Assembly: GCF_000186365.1 (NCBI RefSeq)
Contig: NC_014961.1
Location: 930,001-994,000 of the forward strand
Length of the DNA stretch: 64,000 nucleotides
DNA from: Desulfurococcus mucosus DSM 2162
GTDB lineage: Archaea; Thermoproteota; Thermoprotei_A; Sulfolobales; Desulfurococcaceae
Direction of reading: 5' to 3'
Position 1 is the stretch's first letter. Every line of letters starts with the position of its first letter. The notes beneath the pieces were generated by a model, which ran no database searches, was not told where the DNA came from, and saw only the letters and a list, made by a program, of their open reading frames with translations. The translations under genes were made by a program, and so were the position numbers. This document shows positions 3,068-63,688 of the stretch, piece after piece.

Positions 3068-3180
3068 AGGGTTCCCTCATCCTACTATCAGCATTCAGGT
3101 ATTTAAAAGAGAACCATGCAGTAGGCTGCGTGCTCCAGGAGGCATCATGGATATTAACCTGTGTACTGATATATGAAGCC

Positions 3181-3258
3181 TGCCCCGCCCCCTCACACCT
3201 CCATGAGACCCCCGAAGGGGAGTGAAGATGATGGAGGACGGTCGGGCGGGGTACACGC
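3181..3258 (+). ncRNA. Probable H/ACA pseudouridylation guide RNA
   Basis: The sequence folds as one archaeal H/ACA unit. The lower stem is CCCCGCCC (3183-3190) with GGGCGGGG (3244-3251). The pocket strands are 3191-3197 and 3238-3243. The upper stem is CCTCCAT (3198-3204) with ATGGAGG (3231-3237). A purine-rich asymmetric internal loop (GAGA opposite AGTGAAGATG) could form a K-turn, capped by CCCC-GAA-GGGG. ACA is at 3253-3255, exactly 15 nt after the upper stem, matching the known 14-16 nt rule. Pocket strands CUCAC and CGGUC would select GACCG-UN-GUGAG, which resembles a conserved large-subunit rRNA segment. Confidence 0.7.
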
Positions 3259-3280: not shown

Positions 3281-4210
3281 ATGAGTAGGGGAGGAATGCA
3301 TGTTCTAAGAGTTTTCGACCCCTGGCGTTCCCCTCTGTGTACCTGCCCGTTCAAGTATAGCCTGCACCCTTACACGGGGTGTAGTCATTTCTGCCTCTAC
3401 TGCTATGCTACCTCATATATTGGGAGAAGGCCGAGCACCCCGAAACCAGACTTCACGCGGAGGCTTGAAAGAGACCTGGATAAGGCTAGGAGGGGAAGCG
3501 TGGTCGAGTTAAGCAGCAGTAGTGATCCATATCCACCCCTCGAGTCATGGATGGGTCTCACCCGTAGGAGCCTGGAGATCCTCGGTAAACACGGCTTCAA
3601 GATTCTCGTAACCACTAAATCCAATATTGTTGAGAGAGATGTAGATTTACTGGCAAGGTATCCTTCCTCAGTAATGATCACTATCACGACACTCGACCAA
3701 GAGCTCTCAAGGAAGCTGGAGCCGGGGGCTCCACCACCCGATAAGAGGCTCGACGCTGTTAGGAGGCTCAGCGATAAAGGCATCCCTGTGGGCGTCAGAT
3801 TAGACCCTATAATACCCTTCCTAAACGATGATCCAGCCGGGATACGGGCTCTCATAAGGGAGATCAAGGAGGCCGGTGCCCTCCAGGTAACGGTCTCCAC
3901 GTATAAGGCTAAATGGGATAGTCTAAGGAGGCTTATGAGTGCTTTCCCAGAGATATCGGTGAAACTACGGGAGCTATACGTTGGGAAAGGAGAGTTCATC
4001 CATGGATACATGTATCTCCCACGAAGCTATAGGGAGGCTCTCTTGAAGCCCGCTGTTGAGGAGGCTTTAAGAAGCAACCTGTATGTAGCCACATGCAGGG
4101 AAGGCTTATCCGCTGACTTCATGAAGGCACCCTCATGCGACGGCTCCGGGCTTATAAGAATGCATCCCTCCATAGTCGACGTGGAGAGGAGAGGTGAAAC
4201 CAGTGGGTGA
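3281..4210 (+). CDS. Radical SAM protein, SplB-like family
   Basis: The 309-residue protein carries the radical SAM cluster motif CSHFCLYCYA (CxxxCxxC) near residue 34, after an N-terminal CTCPF. The segment around DPYPPLESWMGLTR and the later VRLDPIIPFLND are typical of the COG1533 group related to spore photoproduct lyase. Archaeal members have no established substrate, so DNA photoproduct repair should not be assumed. The start at 3281 has GAGGAG about 9 nt upstream. The end overlaps the next gene by 17 nt, so the two are probably co-transcribed. Confidence 0.8.
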   Translation: MSRGGMHVLRVFDPWRSPLCTCPFKYSLHPYTGCSHFCLYCYATSYIGRRPSTPKPDFTRRLERDLDKARRGSVVELSSSSDPYPPLESWMGLTRRSLEILGKHGFKILVTTKSNIVERDVDLLARYPSSVMITITTLDQELSRKLEPGAPPPDKRLDAVRRLSDKGIPVGVRLDPIIPFLNDDPAGIRALIREIKEAGALQVTVSTYKAKWDSLRRLMSAFPEISVKLRELYVGKGEFIHGYMYLPRSYREALLKPAVEEALRSNLYVATCREGLSADFMKAPSCDGSGLIRMHPSIVDVERRGETSG

Positions 4211-63574: not shown

Positions 63575-63688
63575 TGCCGCCGCCGGGACTTGAACCCGGG
63601 GCAACCGGATCTCCCCTGGGCAGACCTCGGTACGGACCCGTGGACCCCGTATGAGTCCGGCGCTCTGACCAGGCTGAGCTACGGCGGC
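63575..63688 (-). tRNA. tRNA-Met (CAT), elongator, with 39-nt intron
   Basis: GCCGCCG pairs with CGGCGGC in the acceptor stem, with A73. The anticodon arm CCGGA-CTCATA...A-TCCGG has anticodon CAT (63653-63651) and a T arm CCGGG-TTCAAGT-CCCGG. An intron of about 39 nt (63611-63649) interrupts after position 37, the usual archaeal site. CTTATAAG at 63719-63726 is a suitable TATA box. Confidence 0.93.

Follow-up and report, generated by a model that had tools for sequence, protein, structure and literature searches.

The stretch between hxlB and a radical SAM gene in Desulfurococcus mucosus DSM 2162 raises the question of whether it encodes a guide RNA of the H/ACA class and, if so, which uridine such an RNA would select. 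The first-pass annotation of this DNA (64,000 nt of contig NC_014961.1, positions 930,001 to 994,000, hereafter the window) had proposed an unannotated H/ACA guide at this place. Our analysis leaves us with little doubt that positions 3182-3255 of the + strand are a crenarchaeal orthologue of Pab91, with a pocket that would guide pseudouridylation of the 23S rRNA uridine equivalent to U2593 of Escherichia coli. The guide goes unrecognised by the default Rfam scan of the window, yet it is no new guide type, because Pab91 has already been characterised in Pyrococcus (PMC6138745, PMC3726423).

Hairpin structure and family assignment

The elements of the locus, in window coordinates, are as follows:

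3150-3157, + strand: TATA-like box GATATTAA, which probably serves the guide as promoter, judged by AT content and position upstream of the stem
3182-3255, + strand: predicted core of the H/ACA guide RNA of Pab91 type, hairpin plus ACA, by RF02795 match and our own covariance model
3182-3190, + strand: lower stem P1, 5' strand, GCCCCGCCC, pairs with 3244-3252
3191-3196, + strand: 5' guide strand CCUCAC, in which CUCAC (3192-3196) complements GUGAG, 3' of the target UN, in 23S rRNA
3198-3204, + strand: upper stem P2, 5' strand CCUCCAU, pairs with 3231-3237
3205-3230, + strand: GA-rich kink-turn-like internal loop and apical stem, presumed L7Ae site
3231-3237, + strand: upper stem P2, 3' strand AUGGAGG, pairs with 3198-3204
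3239-3243, + strand: 3' guide strand CGGUC, complements GACCG, 5' of the target U, in 23S rRNA
3244-3252, + strand: lower stem P1, 3' strand, GGGCGGGGU, pairs with 3182-3190
3253-3255, + strand: ACA box, directly after the lower stem
3281-4210, + strand: radical SAM protein gene (Pfam PF04055), directly downstream

Inspection of the sequence gives the lower stem nine pairs, eight of them Watson-Crick and one G-U. The first-pass annotation had counted eight pairs there; the other elements that it described are all present, with coordinates slightly adjusted: an upper stem of seven pairs, a two-strand pocket, a purine-rich internal loop and an ACA placed 15 nt from the pocket top at A3238. This A stands alone before CGGUC, and another single A separates the 5' guide from the upper stem. 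The purine-rich loop is made of the strands GAGA (3205-3208) and AGUGAAGAUG (3221-3230) and is capped by the apical stem CCCC-CGAA-GGGG (3209-3220). The 15 nt of the window copy lie within the pocket-to-ACA spacing of 14-16 nt described together with the general H/ACA architecture (PMC3608112, PMC3726423). Both stems were recovered by minimum free energy folding (-40.5 kcal/mol). Nine of 200 shuffled sequences were equally stable (z = -1.8), and the folding energy alone is weak evidence for the hairpin.

The class assignment came from an Rfam search of 221 nt at an E-value threshold, in which the segment matched RF02795 (Pab91, an archaeal H/ACA guide) from end to end (model positions 1-57 of 57) with 43.4 bits and E 2.1e-7, a score below the gathering score of 71 bits. 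Because this cut-off is high, the default gathering scan of the window misses the guide and reports two tRNAs only; within the scope of that scan the locus was indeed unannotated. The pocket strands of the window copy are those of the Pab91 consensus. A Thermococcus locus that was fetched by the guide pattern reaches 77.9 bits and passes the gathering score of RF02795 by itself, which ties our homologue set to the Pab91 family. Our own covariance model gives the window copy 89.4 bits, the window being part of its training set. Taken with the compensatory changes and the unique perfect rRNA target described below, the family match sets the hairpin beyond chance.

Elsewhere in the window, Rfam places a tRNA of 114 nt on the - strand at 63575-63688 that is absent from the ARAGORN output and is probably an intron-containing tRNA gene.

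Conservation and covariation in relatives

Homologues were found by BLAST (E <= 1e-5) in 28 of 60 relatives from the same genus, family and order, and a pattern scan of our genome collection took in Pyrodictiaceae, Desulfurococcales, Staphylothermus, Thermosphaera and Thermococcus. The parsed loci of both searches gave 55 distinct homologues including the window, and these span Desulfurococcaceae, Pyrodictiaceae, other Thermoproteota and Thermococcus. The pattern-scan matches L034, L047 and L059 are bacterial and, having no lower stem, were rejected as chance matches.

The fold is kept in relatives and bears compensatory changes, the lack of which the first-pass annotation had named as grounds for refutation. 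Pairs 1-8 of the lower stem are preserved in 54-55 of the 55 homologues, and pairs 1, 5, 6 and 8 show compensatory changes; the core upper-stem pairs after the pocket are preserved in all 55, with CG/UA/AU/GC exchanges, and the outermost upper-stem pair is not conserved. In our alignment A2, 95.3% of the cells pair (83.3% in shuffles), and changes on both sides of a pair occur at 10 pairs and in 40 cells, compared with 4.5 pairs and 10.9 cells in shuffles. When the partners are slid by 1-3 columns, this signal is lost (at most 7 double-change cells). The covariation was 0.397 against 0.159 in shuffles, and it points in the same direction in the subset of homologues found by BLAST only, which was not selected by pattern. 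The 5' guide strand is nearly invariant. CGGT of the 3' guide and the ACA are invariant in alignments A1 and A2; the last base of the 3' guide is C in nearly all copies, and the loci L111, L112, L113, L146 and L147 carry AAA for ACA. Changes in length fall mostly in the apical loop.

Conserved GA...UGA elements of that region fit a kink-turn, and two overlapping registers are possible because the motif is doubled in Desulfurococcaceae (UGRANAUGA); Pyrodictiaceae and Thermococcus have a single UGA. L7Ae would presumably bind at this GA-rich loop. Counted along the 3' strand, the kink UGA lies 7 nt from CGGUC in crenarchaeal copies and 8 nt in Thermococcus, and the crenarchaeal upper stem up to the kink appears one layer shorter than that of Thermococcus, which counts against our best explanation. 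In Pyrococcus an upper stem of 10 layers is needed for activity (PMC4652768).

The exact guide strands together with ACA occur in 68 of the 229 genomes of the class, and a reversed control pattern occurs in one of 229. The covariance model matches 149 of 229, a count to be read as an upper bound because matches in the f11 (Sulfolobaceae-like) group and some in f2 and f5 carry other guide strands (e.g. CAGCC); judged by these strands, they look like other H/ACA guides. Outside the class, the model also has matches in a handful of genomes of the phylum. Five loci of the Sulfolobaceae-like group (L107, L108, L128, L130 and L131) are conserved H/ACA-like hairpins in their own right, with other guides such as CUUUAU / CAGCC.

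The predicted rRNA target

The first-pass annotation had read the pocket strands CUCAC and CGGUC as selecting GACCG-UN-GUGAG in a conserved rRNA segment near the peptidyl-transferase region, and this prediction held. The bipartite complementarity around UN is satisfied by GACCGUCGUGAG / GACCGUNGUGAG (GACCG-UC-GUGAG), which is found once in the D. mucosus genome (1,314,639 bp, one contig), and that single site lies in the 23S rRNA. A weaker, partial match, GACCGTACCGAG, is present in the rRNA stretch that was searched. In the alignment to the annotated E. coli 23S gene of 2905 nt the target U falls at raw position 2594. Compared with the standard numbering this E. coli gene is longer by one base, as the displacement of both A2503 and A2602 by one position shows, and the target U therefore corresponds to U2593; we take U2593 to sit in helix 93. 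In P. abyssi, the in vivo target of the Pab91 ribonucleoprotein is U2685 of the 23S rRNA, which belongs to the peptidyl-transferase region, and the reaction has been reproduced in vitro (PMC6138745; see also PMC3726423).

Nearly all relatives from which a 23S rRNA was recovered retain the target site. In the Sulfolobaceae-like genomes GUGAG is replaced by GACCGUCGCGAG at the site, and a guide of the Pab91 type was not found there; in five f2 genomes with GAGCG at the site the covariance model finds nothing better than E 0.25. This suggests, from few lineages, that guide and site were lost or changed together, against which stands the fact that other genomes lacking the guide keep an unchanged site. 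Since the rRNA target is nearly invariant, co-variation between guide and target is thin and mostly uninformative. One clean compensatory case was seen, in genome G044, where AACCG meets the guide CGGUU; this supports the pairing weakly, because at the same outermost guide-target pair three other genomes (G054, G132 and G038) are mismatched.

Genomic context and probable promoter

Both neighbours named in the first-pass annotation were found: hxlB lies on the other strand, and the radical SAM gene is followed by a ZPR1-like gene. The arrangement hxlB / guide / radical SAM / ZPR1-like is common to about thirty loci, and outside loci of this Desulfurococcaceae type the guide has other neighbours. 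The radical SAM protein itself reaches the cut-off of none of the NCBIfam models that it matches (best rSAM_PA0069, 136.7 against 360).

In most syntenic Desulfurococcaceae loci the radical SAM gene starts 14-40 nt after the ACA (99 nt in L020). In the 18 radical-SAM-linked loci that were tested, an AT-rich stretch (AT 0.50-0.88) precedes the stem by 20-36 nt, and over the 55 homologues AT content peaks at positions -31 to -27; the TATA-like box of the window is thus a probable promoter of the guide transcript. The place where the radical SAM gene would have a promoter of its own is AT-poor in most loci. Since the TATA-like box lies upstream of the guide instead, the simplest inference is that guide and radical SAM gene probably share a promoter and a transcript.

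Discussion

One would argue that the GC-rich hairpin arose by chance, or that it belongs to a conserved coding segment: its folding energy is just 1.8 standard deviations below that of the shuffles, and minus-strand open reading frames of 68 and 89 amino acids overlap it. However, neither a chance fold nor a coding constraint accounts for compensatory changes combined with length changes that are mostly apical, and the covariation together with the Pab91 family match refutes both. A genuine guide with a main target other than U2593 is very unlikely as well. Short guides can find further sites, as the partial match GACCGTACCGAG illustrates, and targets outside the ribosome have been proposed for archaeal guides (PMC4652768), but the genome has no second perfect site beside the one in the 23S rRNA, and the two guide strands also stand in the consensus of Pab91, for which P. 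abyssi 23S U2685 is the published target (PMC6138745).

The position of the hairpin, co-directional with the radical SAM gene, 14-40 nt upstream of it in most Desulfurococcaceae loci and seemingly under the same promoter, could be that of a cis-acting 5' leader, either a riboswitch or a control hairpin bound by L7Ae, whose likeness to H/ACA RNAs would be secondary; translational regulation by L7Ae at kink-turns has been suggested for archaea (PMC5539422). Against this, the Thermococcus copies and most of the Pyrodictiaceae copies keep pocket, stems and ACA without an adjoining radical SAM gene, and conservation is strongest in the ACA and in the strands complementary to rRNA, neither of which would be needed in a leader. 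We therefore give such a leader hardly any credence as the main function, while a second, cis role beside that of the guide may exist. A bolder version holds that in Desulfurococcaceae the radical SAM (perhaps also ZPR1-like) mRNA has the guide as its obligatory 5' leader, with ribosome modification tied to expression of the radical SAM gene through processing or L7Ae binding and with the doubled UGA as an unusual tandem kink; this we regard as a tentative idea, on balance doubtful.

The preferred reading, a Pab91 orthologue, is best judged beside the known RNAs. The Desulfurococcaceae copies share with Pab91 of Pyrococcus and Thermococcus the 9-bp lower stem, the CUCAC and CGGUC pocket, the ACA directly after the stem, the 23S target and the match over the full length of the model. 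They differ in that their loop is stem-capped and kink-turn-like with a doubled UGA, whereas Pab91 has a short kink-loop; the 3' strand between kink and guide is 1 nt shorter, the lower stem reads CCCCGC instead of CCCUCC, the gene neighbourhood is another one and the score lies under the Rfam gathering cut-off. P. abyssi guides are reportedly listed by Muller et al. 2008. Among crenarchaeal RNAs, sR201 and sR202 of Pyrobaculum are likewise single H/ACA hairpins with a pocket and an ANA box (PMC4652768); their lower stem has 8 bp, and the comparison made here is one of architecture. Contrastingly, most other Pyrobaculum H/ACA-like RNAs have no lower stem (PMC4652768), while the window guide has one.

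A genome search of D. mucosus found Nop10 and Cbf5, and a Gar1 candidate scored 28.9 bits, just under the cut-off of 29.3. The cbf5 gene, outside the window at G000:C1:1114963-1115932, is split over two reading frames (L075 and L076; profile positions 6-71 and 70-322), presumably by the mRNA intron known for crenarchaeal cbf5. In the proposed mechanism the Desulfurococcaceae guide would be made from the promoter just upstream, as the leader of the radical SAM transcript, and then be processed out. The one-hairpin RNA would be bound by L7Ae at its GA-rich kink and by Cbf5, Nop10 and Gar1; CUCAC and CGGUC would pair with GUGAG and GACCG of the 23S rRNA, and the U of the intervening UC would stay unpaired in the active site of Cbf5 and become pseudouridine. 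The product would be a pseudouridine at the equivalent of E. coli 2593, presumably in helix 93, in the peptidyl-transferase region, corresponding to Psi2685 of P. abyssi. Assembly, catalysis and the actual modification are what we infer from the Pab91 family.

These findings carry a guide with biochemical proof in Pyrococcus over to Desulfurococcales and further Thermoproteota, and they show that the crenarchaeal members tested are missed by the Pab91 cut-off of Rfam. For crenarchaeal ribosomes they predict one specific pseudouridine close to the peptidyl-transferase centre.
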